Shown here in pieces: positions 14,694 through 54,852 of a stretch of DNA of 64,000 nucleotides. The notes beneath the pieces are model-generated. The model had not been told where the DNA came from, did not search any database, and saw only the letters and a list, made by a program, of their open reading frames with translations. Position 1 is the first letter of the stretch; every line of letters starts with the position of its first letter. The stretch lies in the IMG/VR virus record IMGVR_UViG_3300032241_000649, positions 1-64,000 of that record; one strand, written 5' to 3'. This DNA is from a virus. The position numbers and the translations under genes are program-made.

Positions 14694-15230
14694 TTAACCA
14701 GCAACGTAGCCGTTGACCCATGGGCCAATAGCTGTGTTATAGGTAACTCCTGGAGTTGTAGCATCCTGGTACTTGTAGACAACTAGGTTAGTAGTTGTTC
14801 CTTTAGTAGAGGATCCTGTTACAGAAGTTGAATAAATTGTTCCTGTATTAGCAGGAGTTGCTCCAGCTGTATTGTAGGTAACAGTACCTACGTTAGCTCC
14901 AGCAAGTACAAGAGCATCAACTGCACGGATAAAACCATATCCTGTGACATCTGGGATTGTAATTGCATCTGAGGTTACAGATACACCTGTGTTAGCTGCA
15001 TAACCTGGGAATGCATCCCAAGCTTCTGAAGCAATAACTTCGCTGTCCTGTGAAGCAGTGATCTTAGCGCTAGTCTTAGTGCTTACATAAGTCCAGCTGT
15101 GGTTTTGATCTGCACCAACTGTTGTTGTTTGTGTTGGGGAGGTAACTCGATTGTCATCTGGTTGTAGAGGCAGGTTACCCCATACAAAGTCAACGGCAAC
15201 GTTACCAGAGGTATCTACTGGGTTTGACAT
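14694..15230 (-). CDS. PASTA-like surface/virion protein, paralog 1
   Basis: A 178-residue protein. It opens with a conserved tag shared by two neighbours: P-x-D-x-x-G-N-V-A-V-D-F-V-W-G-N-L-P-L-Q-P-D-D-x-R (residues 4-28). The central part contains a PASTA-like repeat (ITIPDVTGYGFIRAVDALVL then GATPANTGTIYS, about residues 90-155). PASTA modules bind peptidoglycan or act as beta-rich surface modules. The common N-terminal tag probably anchors these proteins to a common site, most simply the virion; this is inference. Confidence 0.65.
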   Translation of the reverse strand: MSNPVDTSGNVAVDFVWGNLPLQPDDNRVTSPTQTTTVGADQNHSWTYVSTKTSAKITASQDSEVIASEAWDAFPGYAANTGVSVTSDAITIPDVTGYGFIRAVDALVLAGANVGTVTYNTAGATPANTGTIYSTSVTGSSTKGTTTNLVVYKYQDATTPGVTYNTAIGPWVNGYVAG

Positions 15231-20990: not shown

Positions 20991-21002
20991 CCAACACAAA
21001 CA
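20991..21002 (+). repeat. Dispersed 12-mer CCAACACAAACA, copy 1
   Basis: Exact copy in the gene-poor stretch 20896-21102, which otherwise holds no convincing gene. A GTG-initiated frame from 20940 runs through but lacks a good ribosome site for its length. Confidence 0.8.
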
Positions 21003-21102
21003 ATCAGGCCACTGGCTATGTGGCTATACGTCTGTCCAGCCGTAAGACCAAGTCTAGACGGCTATGGTTTGGCTATTATCAGGTATCAACAGGAGGTTAA
21101 TT

Positions 21103-21204
21103 ATGTCTATTCTAGACCCTATGCAATCAGGTCTGCCTATCACCATTCTATGGCTAGGTGGTTCTCTTCTATTCGCCTATGCCATATTTGGAGGCAAGAA
21201 ATGA
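21103..21204 (+). CDS. Small membrane protein
   Basis: A 33-residue protein (MSILDPMQSGLPITILWLGG...) with one hydrophobic helix and a GGKK end. A very strong AGGAGG site lies 6 nt before ATG 21103, and the stop overlaps the next start (ATGA). Size and coupling suggest a real microprotein. Confidence 0.65.
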   Translation: MSILDPMQSGLPITILWLGGSLLFAYAIFGGKK

Positions 21205-21341
21205 TTATTACCAAGACTACTAAGACCATCAGGCTTACCAAGCCTTGTGGGTGTTCTATCTCTCTATCTATTCATCAGTTGTTTATAGATGGAATACTTC
21301 AGAGTTCCCCCGAAAATGTGAAGGAATTGTCCTATGCATGA
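21201..21341 (+). CDS. Small Cys-containing protein
   Basis: A 46-residue protein beginning MIITKTTKTIRLTKPCGC. A GGAGG site precedes ATG 21201, and it is coupled to its neighbours by ATGA and an 8-nt overlap. Basic N-terminus and a CGC pair; unknown function. Confidence 0.6.
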   Translation: MIITKTTKTIRLTKPCGCSISLSIHQLFIDGILQSSPENVKELSYA

Positions 21342-21558
21342 GATTGAGGACATTGAGGACTTTATTGACCTGAGCAAGGCAACCTATAAATTGCAGTGGT
21401 ATGAGAAAGAGGTCATAGAGTTACGCTTTAGCACAGAGGGCAAAAGACCCATGTCCTTTGAGCAGATAGGTAAGAAAATGGGTATAAGTACAGGCATGGC
21501 TAAGCGTATCTATACAGAGGCTATAGCAGCGCTGGCAGAGTCAATGAAGGAGAAATAA
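21334..21558 (+). CDS. Sigma-70 region-4-like DNA-binding protein
   Basis: A 74-residue protein. Residues ~25-70 follow the region-4 helix-turn-helix pattern: KEVIELRFSTEGKRPMSFEQ, IGKKMGIS, then a recognition helix (GMAKRIYTEAIAALAES). The N-terminal 25 residues are acidic. There is no region 2, so it cannot be a full sigma factor; an anti-sigma-like or co-activator protein contacting RNA polymerase or -35 DNA is likely. Its position at the head of the plus block supports a regulatory role. Confidence 0.7.
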   Translation: MHEIEDIEDFIDLSKATYKLQWYEKEVIELRFSTEGKRPMSFEQIGKKMGISTGMAKRIYTEAIAALAESMKEK

Positions 21559-21560
21559 TA

Positions 21561-21767
21561 ATGGCTAATTGTATCTACTGTGGCAATGAGTTTGCCCAAG
21601 CAAGGCTAGATGCTGGCTATCCATACTGTATGGACAAGACATGTGTCACTAAGGGCATTTCTGGCCGTATGGCTGAGTTCAGGCTTATTCTCATGCCCAA
21701 GCAAGGCTTTACCTATGTCTATAGTGATAGTCCTGATCTATTGAATGGTAAGAGTTCAGGTAGGTAA
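21561..21767 (+). CDS. Small zinc-finger-like protein
   Basis: A 68-residue protein with CIYCGNEFAQARLDAGYPYC then MDKTC (residues 4-28), four Cys in a zinc-binding pattern. The C-terminal half contains FTYVYSDSPDLLNGKSSGR. It starts 2 nt after the region-4-like gene with a GGAGAAATA site. Confidence 0.6.
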   Translation: MANCIYCGNEFAQARLDAGYPYCMDKTCVTKGISGRMAEFRLILMPKQGFTYVYSDSPDLLNGKSSGR

Positions 21768-21781
21768 GTCCCCCGCGAAAT

Positions 21782-21876
21782 GTGGGCGGTGAAAGATACA
21801 CAGTTGGGCACCCTTCGACCTCTTAGGAGGCAATCAAGTGACTTGTGCATTCCGCTGTGTATCTCTCACTTCCCAC
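21782..21876 (+). ncRNA. Structured RNA with a long closing stem
   Basis: Residues 21789-21803 pair with 21855-21869 in 14 of 15 positions (GTGAAAGATACACAG with CTGTGTATCTCTCAC). An outer 5-bp helix GTGGG/CCCAC (21782-21786 with 21872-21876) extends it. Inside lie two small hairpins, CCTC-TTAG-GAGG (21819-21830) and CAAG-TGA-CTTG (21835-21845). No ORF with a ribosome site lies inside. This looks like a folded multi-branch RNA, 33 nt upstream of the next gene. Confidence 0.6.
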
Positions 21877-21908
21877 AAGGAAGTAAACCCTCTATGAAAG
21901 GAGAAACA

Positions 21909-22016
21909 ATGCTGTTCGTATTCATTATGGCAGTAGTCATGCTGGTCTTTGCTTATGCCATCATTGACAAGCAGTACAAAATTGAACGCGAGTACATGGA
22001 GTCGGGCAATGAGTAA
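21909..22016 (+). CDS. Small membrane protein
   Basis: A 35-residue protein (MLFVFIMAVVMLVFAYAIID...) with one transmembrane helix and a charged C-terminus. A GAAAGGAGAAACA site precedes ATG 21909. It overlaps the WhiB-like gene by 8 nt. Comparable single-helix microproteins lie at 21103 and 31478. Confidence 0.65.
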   Translation: MLFVFIMAVVMLVFAYAIIDKQYKIEREYMESGNE

Positions 22017-22350
22017 GGGCCCAACACAAACATTCCTGCAGGTCATAGTTGATTGGCAAGACGCGTCTCTATGCACGCAGACTGACCCCGATTTATTCTT
22101 TGCTGCTGACAATGAGCGTGGACGAGCCAAGAATGAGCGTATAGCTCAGGCTAAGGCTATTTGTAATCAGTGCCCAGTAATACTAAACTGTTTACAACGT
22201 GCTGTATATACCAATGATGCCTATGCAATCATGGGCGGTACAACACCTGAAGAGCGCGGTCATTTAAATGACGGCTCAGGCAAGATGACAACCAGTTGGT
22301 CATTGGAGACCATATTGGCTAACAAGGCGAAGGAGGCAGTAAATGCTTGA
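22009..22350 (+). CDS. WhiB-family Fe-S transcription factor, copy 1
   Basis: A 113-residue protein with the four Wbl cysteines C22, C52, C55 and C61 (LCTQTDPDLFF; ICNQCPVILNC) that hold a 4Fe-4S cluster, and the GGTTPEER turn (residues 76-83) that contacts the primary sigma factor. The C-terminal basic tail usual in DNA-binding Wbl proteins is weak (only a few Lys). It starts at ATG 22009 with GGAG upstream. Wbl proteins are confined to actinobacteria and their phages, so this is key host evidence. A 12-mer repeat lies in codons 5-8. Confidence 0.9.
   Translation: MSKGPTQTFLQVIVDWQDASLCTQTDPDLFFAADNERGRAKNERIAQAKAICNQCPVILNCLQRAVYTNDAYAIMGGTTPEERGHLNDGSGKMTTSWSLETILANKAKEAVNA
22021..22032 (+). 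repeat. Dispersed 12-mer CCAACACAAACA, copy 2
   Basis: Exact copy inside the N-terminal coding part of the WhiB-like gene. Confidence 0.8.
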
Positions 22351-22489
22351 TGAAAATAGACTACAAGAACTAATGGCTATCTCTGAGCAGATCAATTCAG
22401 TACAGGCTAAGTTGGCTGAGATCTATGCTGAGATACATGTGTATAAGTTAATCGGTGAAATCCTAGAGAAGATTGGAGAGTCCAAGTGA
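22343..22489 (+). CDS. Small coiled-coil protein
   Basis: A 48-residue protein (MLDENRLQELMAISEQINSV...) with heptad-like Leu/Ile spacing through most of its length. A strong AAGGAGG site precedes ATG 22343 and the stop overlaps the next start. Unknown function. Confidence 0.6.
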   Translation: MLDENRLQELMAISEQINSVQAKLAEIYAEIHVYKLIGEILEKIGESK

Positions 22490-22623
22490 GCAAAGCAACA
22501 GAGTTTACAGTTGGCAGTAAATGGGTATCTATTGGTGTAAGCAAGCGATTTGGCATTGGCTTCTACATAGATAGGTATTCTATGGGCATAGACTTTCTAT
22601 GCTTCTGGTTCTGTATTGAATAG
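22486..22623 (+). CDS. Small aromatic-rich protein
   Basis: A 45-residue protein starting at GTG 22486 (VSKATEFTVGSKWVSIGV...), rich in Phe, Tyr, Trp and Gly, ending FLCFWFCIE. A GGAGAG site lies 5 nt upstream. It is coupled to the coiled-coil gene by a 4-nt overlap and followed by a terminator. Confidence 0.55.
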   Translation: MSKATEFTVGSKWVSIGVSKRFGIGFYIDRYSMGIDFLCFWFCIE

Positions 22624-22637
22624 TGTTTAGTGAGCAC

Positions 22638-22689
22638 GCTCAGTGCCGTTTCCACTGAGCAGGCGGGGAAGTTGAGGGGCTTCCCCGCC
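22638..22689 (+). terminator. Tandem hairpins with terminator-like second stem
   Basis: Stem 1 GCTCAGTG/CACTGAGC (22638-22660); stem 2 GGCGGGGAAG/CTTCCCCGCC (22662-22689) followed by ATTTCTAT. The second stem is strong but its U-tract is imperfect. Confidence 0.6.
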
Positions 22690-23050
22690 ATTTCTATGCC
22701 ATGCGATAGGTACATGCTATGTATCTATCGGATTGCATAGCCAATCTAGCGGTAAGACATGGACAACATGTAAGCAGTAAGGAATGACGGTTGCTAAGGC
22801 TTGTAAGGAAATTAACCCGAGAAAAGCTGAACCCCTGATTCGGACCCTTTATTCTCGACAGACTTCGTGGGCTGTCACAATACTGGCTCGCTATTGAGTC
22901 TTAAACAAATGTCTCTATCCGTAACTCACATAGTATGGGGAGTATAAACCATGCAAGCAAGTTGGTTTCTACAGTTCTTCCTTAGGTAAAAGAACTCCTC
23001 ACCTGAGCAGGTGAAGGCTAAACTGCTCACTCTTAATAGAAAGGATAGAA
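22690..23050 (+). ncRNA. Gene-free, hairpin-rich 360-nt region
   Basis: No credible ORF. It holds a 12-bp hairpin CGATAGGTACAT/ATGTATCTATCG (22704-22730, loop 3 nt) and a stem CGAGAA/TTCTCG (22818-22857), directly followed by GACAG/CTGTC (22857-22876). The pentamer GTAAG recurs between 22752 and 22810. It is probably a structured RNA or a long leader for the gene at 23051. Confidence 0.5.
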
Positions 23051-23221
23051 ATGTCACCAACACAAACAACAACAACCACCCTCAACCGAATGATCTTCAT
23101 TGTGGAAGCCCAACTGTTTCATGGGCTAACACGCAAGGAAGCATTAGCCTTAGCGGCTGATGAGATGGACACTCTATACGATCGTGTAGAGACAATAACA
23201 ACCTCCGAAAGGGGCCTATAA
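23051..23221 (+). CDS. Small hypothetical protein
   Basis: A 56-residue protein (MSPTQTTTTTLNRMIFIVEA...) with a Thr-rich N-terminus encoded by the 12-mer repeat, then a helical region (GLTRKEALALAADEMDTLYD). An AAAGGAT site precedes ATG 23051. Unknown function. Confidence 0.6.
   Translation: MSPTQTTTTTLNRMIFIVEAQLFHGLTRKEALALAADEMDTLYDRVETITTSERGL
23057..23068 (+). repeat. Dispersed 12-mer CCAACACAAACA, copy 3
   Basis: Exact copy at codons 3-6 of the gene starting at 23051. Confidence 0.8.
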
Positions 23222-23222
23222 A

Positions 23223-23489
23223 ATGGCAAAAGGTAAAGCAACAACACCACAGGTAAATACTGCTGGTGACCGCAAGAATGGCAAGGCACGTAAGAAAAAC
23301 CCCGGCCCTGCTACAACAGAGAAGACCAACTTCACACACGTGAATGGTCGCACAGCTGAAAGCAATGCCAAGCGTGAGGCTTGGAAGGCTGCTGGTGGTC
23401 GTTGGGATCACAAGTCTATCCCTCATTGGAAGACAGGCAAGGTCTACAATCCACAGGCTGTATCACTAGTGGGTAAGTCACTAGTATGA
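23223..23489 (+). CDS. Small basic protein
   Basis: An 88-residue protein. The N-terminal 40 residues are Lys/Asn/Gly-rich; the C-terminal part (SNAKREAWKAAGGRWDHKSI then PHWKTGKVYNP) looks like a short helix plus turn. Probably nucleic-acid binding from its charge. Overlaps the next gene by 4 nt. Confidence 0.6.
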   Translation: MAKGKATTPQVNTAGDRKNGKARKKNPGPATTEKTNFTHVNGRTAESNAKREAWKAAGGRWDHKSIPHWKTGKVYNPQAVSLVGKSLV

Positions 23490-23758
23490 GCAAGAAGATT
23501 AAGCGTAAGCAACTGATCAAGATGTTGGAGGCTAAGTTAGCTGAGGCTGAGTTAGACCTGCAATACGAAGATCATCAGCACAGTCGTGCATATCACACTG
23601 GATTAATTGACGGACTAGGTGAAGCCCTAGTACTGTTGCGCCCAGAATCACGCCGTCTACCTATCACCATTGCATGGTATCAGGAAGACGAGCCAACACA
23701 AACAATGGCGCTAGAGCGTCAGCGTGAGTATATATTCGAAACTATGGAGGCATCGTGA
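23486..23758 (+). CDS. Hypothetical helical protein
   Basis: A 90-residue protein starting with a basic helix (MSKKIKRKQLIKMLEAKLAE), followed by an acidic helical stretch and EALVLLRPESRRLPITIAWY. Coupled at both ends by ATGA/GTGA overlaps. It contains a copy of the 12-mer. Unknown function. Confidence 0.6.
   Translation: MSKKIKRKQLIKMLEAKLAEAELDLQYEDHQHSRAYHTGLIDGLGEALVLLRPESRRLPITIAWYQEDEPTQTMALERQREYIFETMEAS
23693..23704 (+). repeat. Dispersed 12-mer CCAACACAAACA, copy 4
   Basis: Exact copy inside the coding region of the gene at 23486. Confidence 0.8.
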
Positions 23759-24489
23759 CTTGGAAACTTCATACATACGATTACTGGTCTACCTACTTAG
23801 ATGGTGGTCGTAAAAAATACATGCGCCCACTTTATGAGTATGGAATGGTAATTGAAAAAGCCAACCATTGGCAACCTGCTGGTAGTGACCTACAAATCAA
23901 AGCAAGATGGGCAGCTAACCTACCATTTATTACAGTACACAATGATGATTCATTTACTCTACAAGGTGGCACTGTTAATAGTTTCTGGGGTGGCAACTAC
24001 GACATCATAAAATCACAGGGTATACGCTATCGCATGTGGAAGTACACAGGCATACGCGTATTTCAAAAGAACTATCAAATTAGAGTTCTTGAGTTAGACC
24101 CTGCACGTACACCATCTAAGATACAAGGCTGTCGGCGTTGTGCTCAGACAGGCTTAGTAGATGGTTGGTGTAGTCCACCAACTTGTTATGATGGTAGTAG
24201 AGATGATCAAGGCGTGTTCTCATGTCCTACACATCCAGATGCTACCCAGACTAATGGCTACAGACAATGGCATCAACTTCCATGTTCACACGGAGGTATA
24301 GATGGTCATTCAGTAAAACGCGGTAATACATGCTATTCGTGCAGTGGCACAGGCAAGCGCGAATATGGCAACAATCCGATTTCTTTACCATGGGATGGTT
24401 CCCCTCTTAGGGTAAAGGATAGAAAGATAGTCCCGATAACAACGTCAGGACTAATTAACTTAGAAAGGTTGGTCGCACAATATGCTTGA
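23755..24489 (+). CDS. Cys-rich zinc-binding protein with DnaJ-type knuckles
   Basis: A 244-residue protein starting at GTG 23755. The first ~120 residues are Tyr/Trp-rich and mixed alpha/beta. From residue ~122 there are repeated zinc-knuckle patterns, CRRCAQTG and CYSCSGTGKR, close to the CxxCxGxG repeats of DnaJ, with further Cys/His between (SPPTC, FSCPTHP, PCSH). A structural zinc domain is likely. No J domain is present, so chaperone activity cannot be claimed. Confidence 0.6.
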   Translation: MTWKLHTYDYWSTYLDGGRKKYMRPLYEYGMVIEKANHWQPAGSDLQIKARWAANLPFITVHNDDSFTLQGGTVNSFWGGNYDIIKSQGIRYRMWKYTGIRVFQKNYQIRVLELDPARTPSKIQGCRRCAQTGLVDGWCSPPTCYDGSRDDQGVFSCPTHPDATQTNGYRQWHQLPCSHGGIDGHSVKRGNTCYSCSGTGKREYGNNPISLPWDGSPLRVKDRKIVPITTSGLINLERLVAQYA

Positions 24490-24991
24490 GGGCTACTCAG
24501 TAAAGTACAACCCAAGTACACTCATCACTGATAAAACAATCATGGGCAGTACTGATCACATTCAGGCTTCCAATGTATTGACTCGTTCTTTAATGCCACA
24601 TACTTTATTGGATGTGACATCTAAGAGCGTTCATTATAGAGATGCTATCATCGCACATATCTCTAACAATGCAGACAATGAGCATAAAGCAAACGCTCTT
24701 AATATCCTAGTTGAAGCAATCCAATCTACACCAGATGGAGACCCAATGCTTCAGGGATACAGCGAGTATGCAGCAGCCATTGCATTGTTACTAGATAGTA
24801 CTGATGTTGCGTCTAAGATAATTGCACGCAATGAACGAAGTAGTGCTAGTAGTTTCTTAACTACTCTTGCTACAGTTATTGCTAGGAAGATTGAGACAGC
24901 CCAATTCAAGGGCATGGTTGAAGCTTCTGGTGCAGCTGCTACACAGCAATGGGTAATGGTTGACCGCCCAACGCTATTCCCAAATGACTAA
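24482..24991 (+). CDS. Hypothetical helical protein
   Basis: A 169-residue, mostly helical protein: ANALNILVEAIQS, YAAAIALLLDSTDVASKII, then SSFLTTLATVIARKIE. No catalytic motif. It overlaps the preceding gene by 8 nt, and a 12-mer copy begins 1 nt after its stop. Confidence 0.6.
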   Translation: MLEGYSVKYNPSTLITDKTIMGSTDHIQASNVLTRSLMPHTLLDVTSKSVHYRDAIIAHISNNADNEHKANALNILVEAIQSTPDGDPMLQGYSEYAAAIALLLDSTDVASKIIARNERSSASSFLTTLATVIARKIETAQFKGMVEASGAAATQQWVMVDRPTLFPND

Positions 24992-25003
24992 CCAACACAA
25001 ACA
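24992..25003 (+). repeat. Dispersed 12-mer CCAACACAAACA, copy 5
   Basis: Exact copy in the intergenic gap immediately after the stop at 24991. Confidence 0.8.
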
Positions 25004-25015
25004 AACGGGGGGCAT

Positions 25016-25312
25016 ATGTCAGAAGAAATAAAGAAAAGACCAAAGGATACCGCAAACGATATTATCTCTTGTGGTAACTGTGGTCGTCGTATCCAACCTC
25101 ATCAAGCCAGTACCGAGGTGTTTAACACTCGTCACAAAGGCTATGAACATTACCATGAGTCATATCTTGGTTGCTACGAATCAACACGTGAGTCTGGTAA
25201 AAAAGTGGTTCTTAACCGCTACAAGCCATGGCTTCACAACATCTACAACGATCCATCCGAACCTGTTGATGATGGTGCTAAATACACCAACATCATTGAC
25301 AAAATCAAATAG
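25016..25312 (+). CDS. Small zinc-ribbon-like protein
   Basis: A 98-residue protein. SCGNCGRRI (residues 18-26) with a later HYHESYLGC gives a CxxC...HxHxxxxxxC zinc pattern. The C-terminal half is charged. A GGGGGG-type site precedes ATG 25016. It is the last gene before the structured RNA at 25316. Confidence 0.6.
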   Translation: MSEEIKKRPKDTANDIISCGNCGRRIQPHQASTEVFNTRHKGYEHYHESYLGCYESTRESGKKVVLNRYKPWLHNIYNDPSEPVDDGAKYTNIIDKIK

Positions 25313-25315
25313 ATA

Positions 25316-25481
25316 ATGTTAGGCTGGCTAAGCCAACCGCGAGCATACTTCATGTACACCTAGACCCTAGTACCCAATTAAACCAGCCACAGAGGAACAG
25401 TTCTGTGCGACGTAGGTTGAGGCAACAGTGATGGTAAGCCCTGCAGTCCCTGTAAGCACTGGAGGTAAGCCAGCCTAATAT
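25316..25481 (+). ncRNA. Structured ~165-nt RNA closed by a long stem
   Basis: TTAGGCTGGCT (25319-25329) pairs perfectly with AGCCAGCCTAA (25468-25478), and three further pairs extend the helix outward. Inside are a CACAG/CTGTG hairpin (25388-25407), a CAGTG/CACTG hairpin (25426-25461) and a GTAC/GTAC stem near 25355. There is no ORF with a ribosome site. The multi-branched layout enclosed by one long helix is typical of riboswitch-sized or free-standing structured RNAs. It ends 6 nt before the AAAGGAGAGCAAC ribosome site of the next gene. Confidence 0.65.
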
Positions 25482-25499
25482 CTAATAAAGGAGAGCAAC

Positions 25500-25736
25500 A
25501 TGTGTCATGAATGTTATGACGAAGAACAACCCGAGTTTTCATTAGAGATGATCCCTGAGGAAGACCGCGAGGATTTTTTAGACTTCACCTGTGAACAGTT
25601 TGGCGTAGTAATTAACGCTGCTGTTACTAATGATATCTTGTTTGAACTAATCACTGAATGGCCTGCTGAGAAGCAAGCAATGTTCACGTTAGCTAGCGTT
25701 CTTCAAGGAAGAGTCTTTGGAGATAACAACGAATAA
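25500..25736 (+). CDS. Small acidic protein preceding the AAA+ ATPase
   Basis: A 78-residue protein beginning MCHECYDEEQ (CxxC), strongly acidic, mostly helical. Preceded by the recurring AAAGGAGAGCAAC site and by the structured RNA. It sits at the head of the AAA+/VWA pair, so it may belong to that system. Unknown function. Confidence 0.6.
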   Translation: MCHECYDEEQPEFSLEMIPEEDREDFLDFTCEQFGVVINAAVTNDILFELITEWPAEKQAMFTLASVLQGRVFGDNNE

Positions 25737-25746
25737 AGGAGAGCAA

Positions 25747-27132
25747 ATGGAGATAGCAATCTTCACCGAATCATATGAGCCCTCTATGGGAGCACATCGC
25801 CGTCAGGTATTGATGGCTCCTCATGATGGTGGAGTACGTGTCTATTCACGCAAAACTGATGGCACTAAAGGTCATGGTAGCGCGTGGGTTGAGACTGATC
25901 TTGAAGAGTTGGTCACTGAGATCAACCCTAACGAACAGTTGACACGCACACCAAGTGGTGTGTACGTTACACCCTTAGATGAAAAAGCAATAACAACCAA
26001 AGGATATTCCCCAGTGTTGTGCACTAAAGCGTGCTCAGCACATGCTAAGGCTGGTCCTAATACAGAAACAAAAACACTCGTGGAAACTATCTACGATGTG
26101 TACACACGCATACTAGGAGGAGATGACACCTTGGATACATATGTCAAAGACAATCGCTCAGCAACTAGCAGTACTGTCCCGTTGATAGTACAGCCAGTGC
26201 ATGAGCTTCCAACACAAACAACCGCCCAGCCAGCATTCAACGTATCGTTGGCCACAGTGCCTCCAATGAAGTTGGCTGAACGTTATGTACATCGTAAGGT
26301 CTACGGAGTTGAAGACTTCAAAACATTCGATACAGCACGTGCTAAAGGCATCAACGTTCTTATCTACGGTCCAACAGGTCCCGGTAAGACTACAGCAGTC
26401 GAAGCATGGGCTGCTGAACGCAATCTACGCATGGCTACAGTATCTGGTAACGCGTCTATGGAATCCCGCCAGTTATTCGGTGGCTTCATTCCTGATGGCA
26501 ATGGTGGCTATGGATGGATTGACGGTCCTGTCACAGACGTAGTTCGTAATGGTGGTGTTTTACTCCTAGACGAGTTCAACTTCATCAGTCCTAAGATCTA
26601 CACAACACTCTATCCATTGACTGACGGTCGTCGTACGATCACATTGCTAGATCACATGGGCGAGACAATCGTTGCTCACCCTGACCTAACAATCTTCGCT
26701 ACTATGAATCCTGATTACATTGGTACTACACCGCTTAACTTTGCTATGCGTAACCGCTTTGACATTCAACTGTCATGGGATTACGATGACGCAGTGGAAT
26801 CAAAGCTAATCTCATCCAAGTCTTTGCTACTAATCGCTAAGCAATTGCGTGCGGAAGCAGCCAAGGGTCAGTATGAGACTCCAATCTCAACTAACATGCT
26901 CATTGAAATTGCTGACTTCATCAATGATGATGATCTTGGCTATGAGTTTGCTATTGAGAACTTCATCGCTCACTTCAGTGCAGACGAGCAGCCATCTGTT
27001 CGTTTGGTATTCCAAACACACGAACACAATATCAAGCAGGACTTCGGTATGGAAGTTGAAATTGAGCTTGAGAAAGACGCTGACGTGTCACCTGAAGATC
27101 TAATGAACAAATGGTTAACCAACACAAACTAA
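25747..27132 (+). CDS. MoxR/CobS-type AAA+ ATPase
   Basis: A 461-residue protein; ATG 25747 is chosen because AAAGGAGAGCAA directly precedes it. The AAA+ core is at residues ~200-340: Walker A GPTGPGKT (208-215), Walker B VLLLDEFN (271-278), sensor-1 FATMNPD (318-323) and the AMRNRF arginine-finger region (about 331-336). The ~180-residue N-terminal part is Thr-rich without a known domain. Such ATPases act with a VWA partner to remodel proteins or insert metal (CobS in cobaltochelatase). The partner is the next gene, 9 nt downstream. Two 12-mers lie within the gene. Confidence 0.85.
   Translation: MEIAIFTESYEPSMGAHRRQVLMAPHDGGVRVYSRKTDGTKGHGSAWVETDLEELVTEINPNEQLTRTPSGVYVTPLDEKAITTKGYSPVLCTKACSAHAKAGPNTETKTLVETIYDVYTRILGGDDTLDTYVKDNRSATSSTVPLIVQPVHELPTQTTAQPAFNVSLATVPPMKLAERYVHRKVYGVEDFKTFDTARAKGINVLIYGPTGPGKTTAVEAWAAERNLRMATVSGNASMESRQLFGGFIPDGNGGYGWIDGPVTDVVRNGGVLLLDEFNFISPKIYTTLYPLTDGRRTITLLDHMGETIVAHPDLTIFATMNPDYIGTTPLNFAMRNRFDIQLSWDYDDAVESKLISSKSLLLIAKQLRAEAAKGQYETPISTNMLIEIADFINDDDLGYEFAIENFIAHFSADEQPSVRLVFQTHEHNIKQDFGMEVEIELEKDADVSPEDLMNKWLTNTN
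26209..26220 (+). repeat. Dispersed 12-mer CCAACACAAACA, copy 6
   Basis: Exact copy in the linker-coding part of the AAA+ gene, just before the ATPase core. Confidence 0.8.
27119..27130 (+). repeat. Dispersed 12-mer CCAACACAAACT, copy 7
   Basis: 11 of 12 bases match; it encodes the last residues of the AAA+ protein up to the stop codon. Confidence 0.75.
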
Positions 27133-27141
27133 GGGGGTAAC

Positions 27142-29001
27142 ATGTTTCAAGATGAGTTAGATGAATCGTACTACGCACAAGAACGAACTGAGGAGATACA
27201 GGTTAGATCTGTTCGACTCAATGCGCTCTGTCGTGTATATGAACAAGCAGACCGTGTTCTCACTGGTGATCCAGTGGTAGTAAATGTAGCAAATGACGGC
27301 CCCGCACCAGCGTGGTCCGACGGTGCAAGCATTACTATCAATGCCAGTCAGATAGGTGACATGGACTTAGAGTCATTGACTCAGGTCAATGGCCTGAACT
27401 ATCATGAGCTTGCCCATCACTTATATACTCCAAGACGAGGCACAGACCTTGTCAAATGGGTTATAGAAAATAACTACATGCAGACGTTCAATATGCTGGA
27501 GGATCAGCGTATCGAGACTTTGCTTGTAGCACGCTATCCATCTATTGCTCCATATCTAACAGCTACGTGTGCTCGTTGGCTTGCTGCATCTCCTGATGAA
27601 ATGCAAAGCAACTATGTACTCATGCGTGGTCGTAGGTATCTGCCTGTGGAATTGCGTCAAGCATTCCGTGATATGTTCAACAATAAAGAACTTATCCCAG
27701 CAATCATTGACATCGTAGATCAGTATCGTCTCTTAGCATTCCCCAAAGATTATGCTAAGGCTCGTGAACTAATCAAACGGTTCAATGATGAAGTGCTACC
27801 AAACATGCCAAAAATTCCACAAGGTGGCAATGGATGTACTAATCGTGATCCAGTAACCAAAGGTCGTCCTGAGCCAGGCAAGGCACAGGAACGTGACGCA
27901 CAGCGTGCTAATGGTATGGGCAAAGCAGAATCTGAATGGACTCCACGTAAATCTATTGAGGAGCAAACAGAAGATGCGCCCAACACAAACCCAACTGAAA
28001 ACATAACTCAAGTTATGTCAACAGAGGAGCAACTAGAGGCTCGTCAGCAATCACAACAATCTAACACAGCTGGATTAGCTGCTGGTGATGGTCACATTGC
28101 TAGTGCTGGTGGATTGCCAAACAACATCAATGACATGCTTGATAACGTCATACAGTCTGTACTAGAACGTAAAGATGTACAGCAGGACGTTAAAATCAAG
28201 CAGAAAGTAATCATTGGTGGTGATGGCAAGCATGAGGATACATTGCGTACGGGTAAGTTTGACAAAACCCCTGTACCATCTGAAGCCATGGCTAACTTTC
28301 GTAAGTTTGCTAAGGAACTAGAACGCTTGCGTGATGAGTGTGAGCCAATGTGGCATCGTGAGGAAGCGTCTGGCCGTCTCAATGTACAACGTGCATTGCG
28401 TGGCTGTGAAATTGACGAAGCCTTTGACCGCTGGGATGAAGGTAACGATGGTGCTGATATCGAAGCGGTAATCATGGTTGATCGGTCAGGCTCTATGAAT
28501 TCTGGTAAAAATGACATGCACGCTTCTATCGCTAGCTGGACTATCAAACGTGCACTAGAAAGCATCGGCGCCCCGGTGACTGTGTATGCGTTTGATGACC
28601 AAGCTGAACTAGCCTATGCTCGTACTGAACTGGCTAGCAAGACTCAATACAAATTCATCTATGGTAATGGTGGTACAAATCCGTACTCTACATTGCTAGC
28701 AGCTGAGCAGTTATTGATGTCCTCTCGTAAGAAAAATAAGATGCTGTTCATGATTACTGACGGCGCGTTTGATGCCCGCAGGAATGATGAAATTATCGCC
28801 CGCATTCAAAAGCGTGGCGTGCTAACTGCAATGACTCTTATCATGCAGGAAAGTGATCTAGAGTACTACACAGAACGTGGTACAAAACTAGAAGAGTTCC
28901 GTCATGGTATGGAAATCTTTGCTCGTATCAATTCAGCACGTGACTTGGTTCCATTTGCCAAGTCTGTAGTAGCCGGCGCTATCAAGAAGCGTGGGCGTTA
29001 A
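27142..29001 (+). CDS. CobT-type VWA protein with HExxH motif
   Basis: A 619-residue protein. The N-terminal region carries HELAH (residues 88-92) and NMLEDQRIE (117-125), the paired motifs seen in CobT-like and related putative metallopeptidase proteins. The middle (about 215-330) is a disordered linker rich in Gln, Asn and Pro. The C-terminal VWA domain has the MIDAS motif DRSGSMNS (about 445-452), and a later MLFMITDGAFD strand supplies the second acidic site. It is the expected partner of the AAA+ ATPase directly upstream. As in CobS/CobT or RavA/ViaA, it probably forms a chaperone or chelatase-like complex. Confidence 0.85.
   Translation: MFQDELDESYYAQERTEEIQVRSVRLNALCRVYEQADRVLTGDPVVVNVANDGPAPAWSDGASITINASQIGDMDLESLTQVNGLNYHELAHHLYTPRRGTDLVKWVIENNYMQTFNMLEDQRIETLLVARYPSIAPYLTATCARWLAASPDEMQSNYVLMRGRRYLPVELRQAFRDMFNNKELIPAIIDIVDQYRLLAFPKDYAKARELIKRFNDEVLPNMPKIPQGGNGCTNRDPVTKGRPEPGKAQERDAQRANGMGKAESEWTPRKSIEEQTEDAPNTNPTENITQVMSTEEQLEARQQSQQSNTAGLAAGDGHIASAGGLPNNINDMLDNVIQSVLERKDVQQDVKIKQKVIIGGDGKHEDTLRTGKFDKTPVPSEAMANFRKFAKELERLRDECEPMWHREEASGRLNVQRALRGCEIDEAFDRWDEGNDGADIEAVIMVDRSGSMNSGKNDMHASIASWTIKRALESIGAPVTVYAFDDQAELAYARTELASKTQYKFIYGNGGTNPYSTLLAAEQLLMSSRKKNKMLFMITDGAFDARRNDEIIARIQKRGVLTAMTLIMQESDLEYYTERGTKLEEFRHGMEIFARINSARDLVPFAKSVVAGAIKKRGR
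27980..27991 (+). repeat. Dispersed 12-mer CCAACACAAACC, copy 8
   Basis: 11 of 12 bases match, inside the linker-coding region of the VWA gene and in a different reading frame (Pro-Asn-Thr-Asn) from copies 2-4. Confidence 0.75.
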
Positions 29002-29002
29002 T

Positions 29003-29014
29003 CCAACACAAACA
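29003..29014 (+). repeat. Dispersed 12-mer CCAACACAAACA, copy 9
   Basis: Exact copy in the intergenic gap, its last base shared with an AAAGGAGAGCAA ribosome site. Confidence 0.8.
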
Positions 29015-29026
29015 AAGGAGAGCAAA

Positions 29027-29218
29027 ATGTACAACATATTCGATAACCTTACAGAAACATTGATAGGCCCATTCAATGACTATGAATCAGCCCAAATGTT
29101 CATGCTATATGCCTCAGAAGACATGATAGATGGTGGCGCATGCCTATCCATTGAAGCTGTAACTGATCCACTTGAGTGGGTACAGGAGAATAATCTATCT
29201 ATGGCAGCATACGTATGA
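29027..29218 (+). CDS. Small acidic protein
   Basis: A 63-residue protein (MYNIFDNLTETLIGPFNDYE...), acidic, alpha/beta. Its start is set by AAAGGAGAGCAAA before ATG 29027 rather than an upstream in-frame start at 28991. Its TGA overlaps the next ATG. Unknown function. Confidence 0.6.
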   Translation: MYNIFDNLTETLIGPFNDYESAQMFMLYASEDMIDGGACLSIEAVTDPLEWVQENNLSMAAYV

Positions 29219-29376
29219 GTATCCAATATCTAGACCATCATCCAGTTATTACACCAATCATAGAAGGATTAAAACAACGAGAGGAGGAACGCCATCAAGC
29301 TAATAAAGATATAGTTAGAGAGCTGTTAATTAAACACGATGCAGAGGATTTAATTCCAATGCTATTGGAGGACTAA
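29215..29376 (+). CDS. Small helical protein
   Basis: A 53-residue protein (MSIQYLDHHPVITPIIEGLK...), coupled by ATGA upstream and TAATG downstream. Mostly one charged helix. Unknown function. Confidence 0.55.
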   Translation: MSIQYLDHHPVITPIIEGLKQREEERHQANKDIVRELLIKHDAEDLIPMLLED

Positions 29377-29558
29377 TGGCCAAAAAAAGTAAGAGTACAA
29401 CCATTGGTTATGGGAAGCACACGTTCAAAAAGAGAAAGACTAGAGCGGGTGGTTCTTGCATGAGGGTTGGTGGTAGAAATAGGATACGTAAACCCAGACT
29501 TACAGCGGGTACGTTTCCTGTAGTAACTACTTATATAAACAAACTAGAGGAAGAATAA
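29376..29558 (+). CDS. Small very basic protein
   Basis: A 60-residue protein dense in Lys/Arg (KHTFKKRKTRAGGSCMRVGG...), with a GGAGG site before ATG 29376 and TAATG coupling to the next gene. Probably binds nucleic acid. Confidence 0.6.
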   Translation: MAKKSKSTTIGYGKHTFKKRKTRAGGSCMRVGGRNRIRKPRLTAGTFPVVTTYINKLEEE

Positions 29559-30013
29559 TGGTAAATACATTCCTGCCTTGGCCGGATATAACAAAGACAG
29601 CTAAATCCCTAGACGATAAGAGACTTGGCAAGCAACGCGTAGAAGCATTGCAGATTCTAAGGGCTAACTTGGGTCTAACTGTGGGATGGCGCAACCACCC
29701 AGCTGCAGTAATGTGGCGGGGACACGAAGGCTACCTATATATGTACACGAACGCTATGTGCATAGAGTGGAGGCAACGTGGGTTTGAAGATAACGTACAA
29801 GCAAGGCTGCAAGAAATATATGCAGAGCACGACTTACAGGGCTGGGATAAACCCTGGTGGTGGGGCATTGATGAGTTCCATAAATCGCATCGCTCTAACC
29901 TCAAGCGTAAAGATCCGGTTTGGTACCGGTTTCGTGTACGCAAAGACCTGTTATACAAATGGCCTATGCCTGATAGGTCATTCCGTGTAGTAACTAAAAA
30001 GGAGAAAAAATGA
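29558..30013 (+). CDS. Pyrimidine-dimer DNA glycosylase family protein (MSMEG_6728-like)
   Basis: A 151-residue protein with the family N-terminus NTFLPWPDITKTAKSLDDKR followed by LGKQRVEALQILRA and GWRNHPAAVMWRGHEGYLY (residues 3-65). This is the pattern of the PF03013 family related to T4 endonuclease V, which cleaves the glycosylic bond of UV-induced thymine dimers. The conserved Arg/Glu/His-containing N-terminal half is intact. It would protect phage DNA in sunlit water. Located in a run of small coupled genes. Confidence 0.75.
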   Translation: MVNTFLPWPDITKTAKSLDDKRLGKQRVEALQILRANLGLTVGWRNHPAAVMWRGHEGYLYMYTNAMCIEWRQRGFEDNVQARLQEIYAEHDLQGWDKPWWWGIDEFHKSHRSNLKRKDPVWYRFRVRKDLLYKWPMPDRSFRVVTKKEKK

Positions 30014-30147
30014 ATGAAGTAGTATGGCAGTCTACAATCACAGCAGATATGGTTGCAGACTTCAGTCCAGATGAACTAGACCTCATGATTGCTGACCTAA
30101 ACGATGCAGTCATGCAAACCTGTCAAGACTATGGAATGGCGGACTAA
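30010..30147 (+). CDS. Small acidic protein
   Basis: A 45-residue protein (MNEVVWQSTITADMVADFSP...) starting in the stop codon of the preceding gene (ATGA) behind a GGAGAAAAA site. Acidic and helical; unknown function. Confidence 0.55.
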   Translation: MNEVVWQSTITADMVADFSPDELDLMIADLNDAVMQTCQDYGMAD

Positions 30148-30148
30148 C

Positions 30149-30340
30149 ATGGCTAAGTATCAAGTAACCATCCACGAACATGTTATCTATGATCATTGGG
30201 TGGAAGCAAGCAGCAAAGAAGAAGCAAAAGAACTAGCTGAAGACGCCATAAGTGATGGCAACAATGCAGGTTGGAAGCTAGATGAAATGGCTGGGTGGAC
30301 TGAAGTAGGAGACATCTACCTAGATGATCAGCTGATTTGA
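30149..30340 (+). CDS. Small acidic protein
   Basis: A 63-residue protein beginning MAKYQVTIHEHVIYDHWVEA. ATG 30149 lies 1 nt after the previous stop. The strand-then-helix layout (SSKEEAKELAEDAI) resembles several small phage proteins with a beta-alpha repeat, as in the protein at 31254. Unknown function. Confidence 0.6.
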   Translation: MAKYQVTIHEHVIYDHWVEASSKEEAKELAEDAISDGNNAGWKLDEMAGWTEVGDIYLDDQLI

Positions 30341-30366
30341 CTCAAAACAAACAAATCGGCTATACT
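30337..30366 (+). promoter_or_regulatory. Sigma-70-type promoter
   Basis: TTGACT (30337-30342), 18-bp spacer, TATACT (30361-30366); the predicted start is about 30373, just before the 30386 gene. A diverged copy of the dispersed 12-mer (TCAAAACAAACA, 30342-30353) overlaps the spacer. Confidence 0.65.
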
Positions 30367-30385
30367 GTAAATGGAAAGGAAAAAG

Positions 30386-30592
30386 ATGCCTAATGAAGAC
30401 CTATACAACCTAGAAATCAAGTTCGATGTCAACATAGCCAAATGGCGTATTGATGATCAAACTGTAGAAGACAACAGAGAGTGGGCACTATGGGTATATG
30501 ACAGGTTACAAGGCAAATGGATTGATACTTCAGAAATGAGTAGACCAGGTGAAGAAGTATCTATCGTAGAGCTTACCCAAAGGGGGGTATGA
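30386..30592 (+). CDS. Small hypothetical protein
   Basis: A 68-residue protein (MPNEDLYNLEIKFDVNIAKW...). ATG 30386 follows AAAGGAAAAAG; an upstream in-frame ATG at 30371 lies too close to the predicted transcription start. First gene behind the 30337 promoter. Unknown function. Confidence 0.6.
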   Translation: MPNEDLYNLEIKFDVNIAKWRIDDQTVEDNREWALWVYDRLQGKWIDTSEMSRPGEEVSIVELTQRGV

Positions 30593-30596
30593 TGAA

Positions 30597-30824
30597 ATGC
30601 AACTCAATATAAAGACCAAGGAGATAAAGAAGCTGGTTAGCGCGTTAGAGCAAGCCGGCTTACAAGTTTCCATAACTAATGGGAAACACCATGTTAAAGT
30701 GGTTAACCCAAGAACTAGGAATACTGTGTTCTTCGGGGCTCAGTCTCTAGGAGATCGCAGAACTGGTAAGAATATCCTACGAGATCTAAAGCACGTAGGA
30801 TTCAACAAGAATATAAAGCTCTAG
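30597..30824 (+). CDS. HicA-like small RNA-binding-fold protein
   Basis: A 75-residue protein. SALEQAGLQVSITNGKHHVK with the NGKHHVKV strand, then GDRRTGKNILRDLKHVGF, matches the compact fold of HicA-type mRNA interferases, including the central His. No HicB-like antitoxin gene is adjacent (the next gene lacks that pattern). An orphan nuclease or an RNA-binding protein is possible. Confidence 0.55.
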   Translation: MQLNIKTKEIKKLVSALEQAGLQVSITNGKHHVKVVNPRTRNTVFFGAQSLGDRRTGKNILRDLKHVGFNKNIKL

Positions 30825-30833
30825 GAGGGCAAT

Positions 30834-31127
30834 ATGGCTACAACAGTAAAACAAACACTGACCGCAAAATTAACCAAGAACACATCTGTAGAAAAGGGTG
30901 GGGCTTGGTTACTTCACATCTGTATCCAAACTGAGGGAGCAAGTGAATGTGTAATGGATACGCACTCAGCTTGGTCTAACCCATCTGCAGCTAAGCGCTT
31001 CTTGAAGCAAGTAGTGCTTGAGAACACTCCACGTAAGTCCATCAAGATGGAGACTAAAGCTACCAATGACTTGGGTAAGCCAACTCATCTAGCAGGTGAG
31101 CTCAACTATAAGTGGGGTATTGCATAA
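30834..31127 (+). CDS. Hypothetical protein
   Basis: A 97-residue basic protein with a strand-rich first half (GGAWLLHICIQTEGASECVM) and a Lys-rich second half. Preceded by AGGAGGG. Its stop overlaps the next start (TAATG). Unknown function. Confidence 0.6.
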   Translation: MATTVKQTLTAKLTKNTSVEKGGAWLLHICIQTEGASECVMDTHSAWSNPSAAKRFLKQVVLENTPRKSIKMETKATNDLGKPTHLAGELNYKWGIA

Positions 31128-31261
31128 TGGATATGGAAACCGTACTACCTCGTACCTGTACTATATGTATGGGTACGGGGGTTGCCACATGGTATATAGA
31201 TGAAGAAACATTTGAAATCAAAGAATGTGACTGCCAATACAAGGAGGAAACAAATGGCTAG
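31127..31261 (+). CDS. Small zinc-ribbon-like protein
   Basis: A 44-residue protein with CTICMGTG (residues 11-18) and ECDC (33-36), a mini zinc ribbon resembling one DnaJ knuckle. It overlaps the next gene by 8 nt. Confidence 0.6.
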   Translation: MDMETVLPRTCTICMGTGVATWYIDEETFEIKECDCQYKEETNG

Positions 31262-31466
31262 ATACTCAGTAATGTACAGTGTAGAAAAGACAGGCACATT
31301 GACGTTTACAGCGGATGATGATAGCCACGCACAAGAGCTATACGATGCTTTACTAAATGGAGACATTTATGAGGCAGATCTTGAAGACCTACAAGACAGC
31401 ACAGAAGATAATAACCAAAGCTTCTATGAACTACGTAACTCACACGGCAAGCAAATAGCAGACTAA
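31254..31466 (+). CDS. Small acidic protein
   Basis: A 70-residue protein beginning MARYSVMYSVEKTGTLTFTA; ATG 31254 has a strong AAGGAGG site. The strand-helix start followed by an Asp/Glu-rich C-terminus resembles the protein at 30149. Unknown function. Confidence 0.6.
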   Translation: MARYSVMYSVEKTGTLTFTADDDSHAQELYDALLNGDIYEADLEDLQDSTEDNNQSFYELRNSHGKQIAD

Positions 31467-31477
31467 AGGAGAGCAAC

Positions 31478-31633
31478 ATGACACTAGCAACACTTATACT
31501 GGTAGCAACATATATAGTAGTAGACGCCATTAGAGACATACGATTAGAGCGTCGTTTGAGCGATATAGAAGACTGTGTATTCTATATCTATGAAAACCAT
31601 CCTGAGCTACTTGACCACATACGAGTAGATTAA
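31478..31633 (+). CDS. Small membrane-anchored protein
   Basis: A 51-residue protein with an N-terminal hydrophobic helix (TLATLILVATYIVV) and a charged cytoplasmic tail. Preceded by the recurring AAAGGAGAGCAAC site. Last gene of the plus block, directly before the terminator. Confidence 0.6.
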   Translation: MTLATLILVATYIVVDAIRDIRLERRLSDIEDCVFYIYENHPELLDHIRVD

Positions 31634-31647
31634 ATAGGCAAAGCAAA

Positions 31648-31677
31648 GGCCCCCGGCTCTTAATTGAGTCGGGGGCC
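31648..31677. terminator. Strong bidirectional terminator between the plus and minus blocks
   Basis: A 12-bp stem with one G-U pair (GGCCCCCGGCTC/GAGTCGGGGGCC), 6-nt loop, A-rich on the left and T-rich on the right. It separates convergent transcription units. Confidence 0.85.
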
Positions 31678-31680
31678 ATT

Positions 31681-31692
31681 TGTTTGTGTTGG
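31681..31692 (-). repeat. Dispersed 12-mer, inverted copy closing the array
   Basis: TGTTTGTGTTGG, the exact reverse complement of CCAACACAAACA, 3 nt after the bidirectional terminator. Confidence 0.8.
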
Positions 31693-33941: not shown

Positions 33942-35438
33942 CTATCCTTCTAAGTTGTCATTGATTATTCTAGCAGATTCACCCTCGCTGAGTCCAGTTG
34001 GGAGCTCACGTAAAGTGTTTGCTTTATCACCAAAGAGGGCTGACATTACACCGCCAGAGGTTTGACGCTCTACGGTCATGCGAACAAACTCCTTGTTCTC
34101 TTCCATCTTCTTGACTTCTCCTATGATCTTAAAGAGACGGTCAATCTCTTGCCCGGTATTTGGATCCGGGTATCCACCGTTCAATTCTTCAGCAAAACGT
34201 GCAAAAGCGACCCTAGCGCCCTGCATTTCTATAATTGCGTTGAGCAAACTCTTCAGCTGGTCTTTAGTCTTAATCTCTACTGGTAGGTTAAATGAGCAGG
34301 CGCTGTTAGGAGTAAAGGCCGGGCAATTTGATGCTACGAAGCAGGTGTTGCATTGACGGAAGGAAGTCTGGGTGCTTGTAATGATTGGAACATCTGAAAT
34401 AACATCCCGTCCAAGCTCATCTTTTTCCATTACAGTCTTAGAAGTTACTCCGAAAACTGGGAGTGTGTAGGTCTCTTTAGGAGGCTTTAGCTTAAAATCT
34501 TTCCGCACCTCAACGTCCCTCTTATCAGGATCTGGACCCATCGTTTCCGCAGAACCTGGGTCATCTATATCCGCACTGTTATCAGATAACAGTGGCTCAG
34601 GAACCACTCTAAGATGAGAAGCCTTTGAATTTAGAGAATTCTCAAGCTGCAGGTATGACCAAATAGCTAGCTTAGTAACTTCATTACTATCATCATTGAG
34701 AATCTTGTCAAAGTCCAGACCAGCTTTCTGGATCACAGCTTTATACCGTGGACGAGCTTGATCCTTCATCTTCTTCTGGTAGCGAACCAGACGGGTGCCA
34801 TCCCAGACAATAGTCTCCCCTCTCATCATTGGGCTAAGCCATGAGAGAGTGCTGGCAGAAGTCAGAGGTACTGAGCGAAGGTTATCGGGCCGGGCACAGG
34901 CAATTCCATGAAATTGTACTTCAGGGAACTCCTGTAGGATAGCCCTAGAACGGGCTGCAAGGCTGGTGTCGTCCTCGATTGACTCTCCGAGGATAGCGAT
35001 GTTGGTGTAGCGCTGAGCAAGGCTGTGAAGGGCAATGTGACCCGTTTCCTGGTGCCATACTGCGGCAAATTTATCAAGCCCAAACTCTTCCCAAAAGGTG
35101 CGACGCTCATGATTGATCCAGTTCTGACCTAGAGCTTTTATATCTAGCTCTGTAGCCATGTGGATTCTATCCTCATTGAGAAGGAGCCAGTCCTGATAGT
35201 CAGCTGCGTACTCTTCCAGCTCGCGCTGTGTCAGGTTGAGGTCATTGAGCTGATGGCCGCCACCATCAACGTAGACCTTTACATCTTCAGGGAACCTCTC
35301 TGATAATAGATAGGGTTTAGATTTAGGTAGGCCACGCTTCACTAACCGGTAGTAATTTACCCCGACATGCTTTACCCCGGCGTTTACCAACAGGAGACGG
35401 TGTGATGGAACCTCTCCACCTAGGAATACTATGTTCAT
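33942..35438 (-). CDS. TGT-like (queuine tRNA-ribosyltransferase-like) protein
   Basis: A 498-residue protein. The first ~250 residues look like a TIM-barrel-type domain: MNIVFLGGEVPSHRLLLVNA, KPYLLSERFPEDVKVYVDGG and HMATELDIKALG. I recall this layout from actinophage proteins annotated as queuine tRNA-ribosyltransferase. The C-terminal third has a Cys cluster (CNTCFVASNCP...NSACSF) followed by VEIKTKDQLKSLLNAIIEMQ and RMTVERQTSGGVMSALFGDK. It may modify phage DNA or tRNA with a deazaguanine, but no deazaguanine-synthesis genes are visible nearby. The assignment is tentative. Confidence 0.5.
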   Translation of the reverse strand: MNIVFLGGEVPSHRLLLVNAGVKHVGVNYYRLVKRGLPKSKPYLLSERFPEDVKVYVDGGGHQLNDLNLTQRELEEYAADYQDWLLLNEDRIHMATELDIKALGQNWINHERRTFWEEFGLDKFAAVWHQETGHIALHSLAQRYTNIAILGESIEDDTSLAARSRAILQEFPEVQFHGIACARPDNLRSVPLTSASTLSWLSPMMRGETIVWDGTRLVRYQKKMKDQARPRYKAVIQKAGLDFDKILNDDSNEVTKLAIWSYLQLENSLNSKASHLRVVPEPLLSDNSADIDDPGSAETMGPDPDKRDVEVRKDFKLKPPKETYTLPVFGVTSKTVMEKDELGRDVISDVPIITSTQTSFRQCNTCFVASNCPAFTPNSACSFNLPVEIKTKDQLKSLLNAIIEMQGARVAFARFAEELNGGYPDPNTGQEIDRLFKIIGEVKKMEENKEFVRMTVERQTSGGVMSALFGDKANTLRELPTGLSEGESARIINDNLEG

Positions 35439-48534: not shown

Positions 48535-48859
48535 ACTTTCTGCCCTCTTTCTCTAACCACTGGTCTAAGGTAATACCTTGCTTAGTGATCTTACGTTGTA
48601 CAGCGTTACGTTCTCTGTGAGACATACCGCCAAATATTCCATGTTGCTCATCATTTATTATAGCTTCTTTAAGACACTCTTGTCTAACCGGGCAAGGAGA
48701 CTTGCCATCTTTACCCCAGCAAATTGCTTTAGCCCTATCAGCTATAGGTTTGTAAAGCGCTTTATCTCTTGGAGGAAAGAAAAGCTCTGTGTCTTCTCCT
48801 TGACACTTAGCCTCATATCGCCAAGTCCAGGAGGGATCGTCACTGTAACGGAGTACCAA
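48521..48859 (-). CDS. WhiB-family Fe-S protein, copy 2
   Basis: A 112-residue protein with C19, C47, C56 and C62 and the GGMSHRER turn (residues 77-84), the Wbl pattern. The second and third Cys are nine residues apart (CWGKDGKSPC) instead of CxxC, a real but unusual insertion. A basic C-terminus (RKITKQG...EKEGRKY) could touch DNA. It overlaps the Cas4-like gene by 14 nt, so a regulator sits inside the recombination operon. Confidence 0.85.
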   Translation of the reverse strand: MVLRYSDDPSWTWRYEAKCQGEDTELFFPPRDKALYKPIADRAKAICWGKDGKSPCPVRQECLKEAIINDEQHGIFGGMSHRERNAVQRKITKQGITLDQWLEKEGRKYGQT

Positions 48860-54823: not shown

Positions 54824-54852
54824 ATTATAGACTATAACTCAGGAGAATGCAA
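54824..54852 (-). promoter_or_regulatory. Minus-strand promoter
   Basis: TTGCAT, 17-bp spacer, TATAAT; the same hexamers and spacing as the promoter at 41887-41915. The -35 lies inside the end of the upstream RHH gene. Confidence 0.75.

Follow-up and report, generated by a model that had tools for sequence, protein, structure and literature searches.

Why would a phage repeat a short DNA sequence in one direction, about once per kilobase, along a single block of genes, both between genes and inside them? The question arises for the 12-mer CCAACACAAACA in IMG/VR record IMGVR_UViG_3300032241_000649, an uncultured actinophage of 88,722 bases, of which we analysed positions 1-64,000 (hereafter the window). 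The array formed by this 12-mer is conserved across a group of phages. On the most likely reading, which we hold with about even confidence, it consists of asymmetric sites that a phage protein would read as DNA to control transcription of the block.

A one-way 12-mer array in the window

Nine exact copies of CCAACACAAACA are present in the window, against 0.01 +/- 0.10 expected from dinucleotide shuffles, and none of 100 shuffles reached nine. The plus-strand array, from 20991 to 29014, comprises nine copies in the same direction, seven exact and two with one mismatch, separated by gaps of 636-1299 bases (mean 1002, coefficient of variation [CV] 0.21); none of 5,000 random placements was equally even. 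A preliminary description made from the sequence alone had reported these nine copies with spacing of about 0.6-1.3 kb, a diverged copy over a promoter spacer (30342) and, at the boundary of the block (31681), an exact copy in inverted orientation, and all of this was found again. It had also given 4346 and 62243 as the only copies elsewhere. Both are present, each with one mismatch, but an exact minus-strand copy at 15126, which may be a chance occurrence, had been missed. A copy with two mismatches lies at 9841, and one more exact copy is found at 84337 of the 88.7-kb record, beyond the window.

Six of the nine array copies are inside genes. The distances of array copies to start codons range from 23 to >1000 nucleotides (nt), with several copies in mid-gene and three intergenic ones 23-24 nt upstream of a start codon. 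As some copies encode the peptide PTQT in the same frame, the array might be taken for an artefact of chance or protein coding. However, 3,000 synonymous-codon shuffles keeping the proteins gave a mean of 1.0 in-gene copies and a maximum of 4, against the six observed (the coordinates of three tiny open reading frames [ORFs] were off in these shuffles, none of which contained a site). In the VWA gene, the site falls in a variable linker, ~790-900 bases from the gene start; among the relatives tested, nine read it as PTQT and 23 as xNTN (or similar). Because one gene reads the site in two frames, protein coding does not explain the 12-mer, as the preliminary description had argued. With the intergenic copies and the conservation in distant relatives also speaking against it, the artefact is already refuted and we leave it practically no probability.

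Conservation, drift and a second motif

Using the VWA and AAA proteins as queries, we recovered IMG/VR contigs and retained as relatives ~58 loci of related actinophages with a VWA protein at least 49% identical; since some stem from contigs that are nearly identical, the counts below are not all independent. In contigs whose VWA protein is ~49-77% identical, the 12-mer occurs in the same block and in the same direction. Counted over 25 whole contigs, 205 copies have the direction of the block and 32 the opposite one. Most of these 32 are the boundary copy, whose orientation is sense with respect to the convergent transcript; the reversed control pattern was found once. The site within the AAA gene (window position 26209) is kept in 55 of 58 relatives, that within the VWA gene (27980) in 39 of 58, that just 3' of the VWA gene (29003) in 22 of 58 and the inverted copy at the block end (31681) in 51 of 52. 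The motif thus occupies the same block in close relatives, a check that the preliminary description had proposed alongside the comparisons with shuffled sequence and shuffled codons. Even spacing was also found in 16 relatives (CV 0.19-0.37, p <= 0.004), and the array is confined to one 11-kb transcription unit of genomes of 90-100 kb.

From 137 distinct plus-strand sites that have no more than one mismatch, a core of [CT]CAACA[CT]AAACA emerges; A[AT] comes next, and then roughly eight bases rich in GC and poor in T. The core is asymmetric and, apart from the C/T variants at positions 1 and 7, consists of A and C only. Variants concentrate at those two positions, the only ones at which C-to-T changes are tolerated, which argues for protein recognition. 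In some lineages most copies have changed in concert, to CCAACATAAACA in L130, to CCAACGTAAACA or CCAACATAAACA in L133 and, in part of L129, to CCGACACAAACA; the change extends to the inverted boundary copy. Such concerted drift is expected of a single trans-acting reader. Pairing of the sites with a phage RNA was also considered, the tail of the block-end terminator being complementary to them, but the restriction of C-to-T changes to positions 1 and 7 speaks against it. In the literature, 30 papers contain one of the exact motif strings, and none of the 20 listed deals with phages.

In Gordonia phages, whose VWA protein is ~29% identical, the 12-mer is absent. Seven cultured Gordonia phages (ChisanaKitsune, GMA6, ScarletRaider, Gray, Hanem, Kabocha and UBSmoodge) carry a different one-way motif, CTCCGGGTG, with 62 forward and no reverse copies, situated within or close to the early portion of the homologous plus block. 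Because these phages are mutually related, their 62 copies cannot all be counted as independent events. The VWA genes of ChisanaKitsune and GMA6 carry the motif at offset 825-826 in different frames, one GMA6 copy lies just past the VWA stop codon, and several intergenic copies overlap terminator-type hairpins. The two motifs are linked by position and layout, not by sequence. GMA6 is listed as a phage without temperate features (PMC5559632).

We did not find CTCCGGGTG in the phages DalanDe, Cantare and Sixama, and a third lineage motif, looked for in DalanDe, was not found. Brevibacterium phage Cantare (L042) carries a palindromic sequence, ATACATAGAATCTATGTAT, at 5879, 10299, 11211, 12851 and 15732, and the copy at 12851 comes after TTGACC, a position resembling that of an operator in the -35 to -10 spacer. 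A distant relative of the same gene pair, L149 (IMG/VR 3300045970_000027, GC 0.63), has a dispersed palindromic repeat of the TTCACACTGTGAA type. A host and prophage scan of genome contigs gave one match at 36%, to a contig of an uncultured Propionibacterium metagenome-assembled genome, and no host assignment; by inference only, the likely host is a low-GC freshwater actinobacterium.

Promoter, terminator and candidate readers

Nearly all genes of the record outside the plus block are on the minus strand, structural genes to its left and DNA-metabolism genes to its right. The plus block (20.3-31.6 kb) diverges from its left neighbour and converges with its right one. Its products are WhiB-like, sigma-region-4-like, AAA ATPase and VWA/CobT-like proteins together with small proteins mostly without matches. 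Based on this gene content and the layout of the Gordonia relatives, the plus block is probably an early unit.

The array is associated with a conserved promoter and with a terminator (Table 1). In ~13 distinct relatives, an exact or near-exact copy near the block end lies between TTGACC or TTGACT and TAGAAT, TATACT, TACACT, TAGACT or TAAACT, the two elements being 17-18 bases apart and followed by a start codon. A strong hairpin follows within a few bases ~80% of the distinct minus-oriented (boundary) copies, against ~1% of random positions. After plus-strand sites such hairpins are found in 3% of cases, against 1% of random positions. These sites share no hairpin, which rules out a boxB-type RNA structure at every site, and the search for known RNA families or tRNAs gave nothing above threshold. 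The position weight matrix contains no conserved -10 element, and we rejected the sites as promoters of their own.

The preliminary description had suggested MerR-like, ribbon-helix-helix (RHH) and region-4-like proteins as regulators. The first two stand as candidates, since 26 of 27 group genomes encode the MerR-like protein and all 20 loci tested the RHH protein. The region-4-like protein was ruled out, as its presence in one of 27 genomes means that it cannot be the general reader. BldC binds direct repeats head-to-tail, which makes one-way sites plausible for a MerR/BldC fold, and we take the MerR/BldC-like protein as the candidate reader of the 12-mer. Searches of the PDB with this protein gave no match to a two-domain repressor of the L5 gp71 type. 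In the Gordonia phage ChisanaKitsune, gp84 is MerR-like. WhiB proteins are encoded in all group genomes searched, most relatives having three. The WhiB of the array is unlikely to be a necessary reader, with several array-bearing genomes having only two of the three copies. Comparing site variants with changes in the recognition helices of the MerR-like and RHH proteins revealed no clear link and was confounded by phylogeny.

Table 1. Coordinates of the 12-mer copies and associated features in the window; reader roles are putative
Feature	Position	Strand	Remarks
Motif copy, exact	20991-21002	+	Intergenic
Motif copy, exact	22021-22032	+	Codons 5-8 of the array WhiB gene
Motif copy, exact	23057-23068	+	Codons 3-6 of a small ORF
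Motif copy, exact	23693-23704	+	Within gene 23486-23758, PTQT frame
Motif copy, exact	24992-25003	+	Immediately 3' of a stop codon, 24 nt ahead of the next start
Motif copy, exact	26209-26220	+	Within the AAA ATPase gene
Motif copy, 1 mismatch	27119-27130	+	Final codons of the AAA gene
Motif copy, 1 mismatch	27980-27991	+	Variable linker of the VWA/CobT-like gene
Motif copy, exact	29003-29014	+	Immediately 3' of the VWA gene stop
Motif copy, diverged, 2 mismatches	30342-30353	+	In promoter spacer
Motif copy, exact, inverted	31681-31692	-	Abuts the terminator hairpin at the block end
Isolated exact motif copy outside the block	15126-15137	-	Sense in minus gene 14694-15230
Predicted sigma-70-type promoter, TTGACT-18-TATACT	30337-30366	+	Spacer contains the diverged copy 30342-30353
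Strong terminator-type hairpin	31648-31677		Between the convergent blocks
Candidate reader, MerR/BldC-like winged helix-turn-helix protein	53892-54365	-	Putative role
Second candidate reader, RHH protein	54832-54993	-	Putative role
Sigma-70 region-4-like protein	21334-21558	+	In this phage only (1/27 genomes of the group)
Three WhiB-like proteins	22009-22350; 48521-48859; ~58290-58484	+; -; -	In one phage genome

Outside the block, a queuine tRNA-ribosyltransferase-like gene (33942-35438, minus strand, phrog_887 match) possibly serves 7-deazaguanine DNA modification. The sequence CCTTGAATACC / TGAATACCTTG is present in five copies in the window and probably represents a short coding repeat.

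Possible modes of action

In the mechanism that we propose, a phage-encoded protein would recognize the 12-mer as a one-way site in double-stranded DNA and control transcription of the plus unit at 20.3-31.6 kb. The sense copies every ~1 kb would be distributed stop or insulation points for elongating RNA polymerase, the copy in the promoter spacer would work as an operator, and the inverted copy at the terminator would keep leftward transcripts out of the block. The array would gate both initiation and elongation across one transcription unit. From the sequence patterns we infer a reader of double-stranded DNA and an effect that would be stopping rather than antiterminating, at the DNA rather than the RNA level. 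Its role would probably be the gating or shut-off of early genes during lytic growth. An operator array is supported by the excess of copies, their shared block and direction, the change of frames, the even spacing, the link to promoters, the drift, the Gordonia motif and the conservation of the MerR-like protein.

Several observations weigh against this proposal. A few relatives have only one to three block copies, and the spacing of CTCCGGGTG in the Gordonia phages is uneven (CV 0.68-0.83). Some relatives retain a site at the promoter place without an obvious promoter, and the overlap with promoters could come partly from the short intergenic gap. A roadblock ahead of a terminator hairpin, as at the boundary, cannot aid that terminator. 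Regarding the reader, the MerR-like protein was selected solely for its conservation and fold. Its model (mean pLDDT 80) is nearest to MerR-family and BldC structures with a weak best Foldseek E value of 0.014, and changes of the motif are not accompanied by changes in its recognition helix.

The main rival, unlikely in our view but far from negligible, is an RNA-level or non-template-strand element, in which the transcribed A/C-only motif would load a phage factor on RNA polymerase or the mRNA, for antitermination of the nut, put or ops type or as a translational repressor site. It would account for the strict sense orientation, for an A/C-only and hence unstructured core, for the three intergenic copies shortly ahead of start codons and for the boundary and several Gordonia intergenic motifs, which in the reading direction lie just before or overlap terminator hairpins. 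From the viewpoint of a leftward polymerase, the boundary motif before its hairpin fits such an element equally with an insulating roadblock. Nevertheless, the copy in the promoter spacer lies upstream of the transcript made from that promoter, the plus-strand sites share no hairpin and the mid-gene copies are far from starts. The lambda-type nut and HK022 put sites are sense-oriented cis antitermination elements of an early operon, present in one or two copies. The 12-mer resembles them as a sense-oriented cis element in a probable early operon, and differs from them by its many copies and the lack of a shared boxB-like hairpin.

Localized nicking, known from phages T5, phiKMV and tf, in which a phage nickase would cut the motif on one strand of the virion DNA, is a minor and quite improbable alternative. 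Like the 12-mer, the nick sites of those phages are short polar motifs, conserved among relatives and mostly on one strand; tf has 14 one-strand 9-mer nick sites, mostly in one genome half and conserved in relatives (PMC3517423). The phiKMV nick consensus ends in CTCCGG, which is also found within the Gordonia motif, possibly by chance. Unlike nick sites, which have no such link to a transcription unit, promoter or terminator, the 12-mer follows one transcription unit and its direction, and its promoter and terminator associations would go unexplained. The Gordonia motif is on one strand genome-wide (62 against 0), whereas the inverted boundary copy in 51 of 52 relatives breaks that rule for the 12-mer. 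Slightly less probable still is a replication, segregation, packaging or recombination signal, which a polar, repeated and regularly spaced sequence might suggest. The restriction to one 11-kb unit of 90-100 kb genomes and a direction that follows transcription in two lineages with different layouts oppose it, and the role in replication or segregation, or as a recombination hotspot, that the preliminary description had envisaged gained no support.

That description had also compared the array to stoperators. Those of cluster A (L5/Bxb1-type) mycobacteriophages are asymmetric sites present 20-30 times genome-wide, mainly in short intergenic gaps (PMC9283540, PMC6550527). They belong to temperate phages with an integrase or parABS, in which binding of a two-domain immunity repressor of the L5 gp71 type blocks transcription in an orientation-dependent way. 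The array shares with them a short, asymmetric, multi-copy site in the 12-14 bp range, an orientation with transcription, one copy in a promoter (here by sequence only) and lineage-specific site sequences. It differs from them by an unrelated site sequence, by 9-13 copies in one 11-kb block, about two thirds of them inside genes in this window, by even spacing and by an inverted copy at the terminator. No integrase match (PF00589 or PF00239) was found in 12 genomes, although positive controls worked; some contigs may be incomplete, and parABS was not searched for. Because no integrase was found, the copies of the window are mostly intragenic and a single block is concerned, we do not class the array as cluster A stoperators. 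A stoperator-like, regulator-bound array nevertheless remains the best-supported interpretation, from the asymmetry, the sense orientation, the promoter-spacer copy and the drift.

Other dispersed repeats of phages are less similar. The 13-bp SAS of cluster K phages are asymmetric, mostly in one orientation and in a non-structural gene region, but they lie 3-7 bp from start codons, whereas copies of the 12-mer lie in the middle or at the end of genes, within a promoter and beside a terminator (PMC3203893). The 17-bp repeats of cluster O phages, from which no lysogens were recovered, have no known function; they are likewise dispersed, partly intragenic and denser in one region, but palindromic, unlike the asymmetric, oriented 12-mer (PMC4351075). 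More broadly, and tentatively, since we think it somewhat more likely to fail than to hold, phages of this group, which appear to be lytic as no integrase was found, may possess a code for elongation control made of one-way sites that are regularly spaced and specific to each lineage. In such a code, a phage factor acting about once per kb would stop RNA polymerase on a single early operon or license its passage, and a mirror-image site would shield that operon from convergent transcription. The code would be a non-lysogenic counterpart of stoperators or a form of distributed antitermination.

To our knowledge, the dispersed oriented sites so far described as acting on elongating RNA polymerase come mainly from temperate cluster A phages. 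Here this architecture recurs, with two site sequences unrelated to each other, in many uncultured actinophages and in integrase-less cultured Gordonia phages. This points to distributed control of elongation as a more general phenomenon, independent of immunity, a question that is directly testable because the seven CTCCGGGTG-bearing Gordonia phages can be grown.

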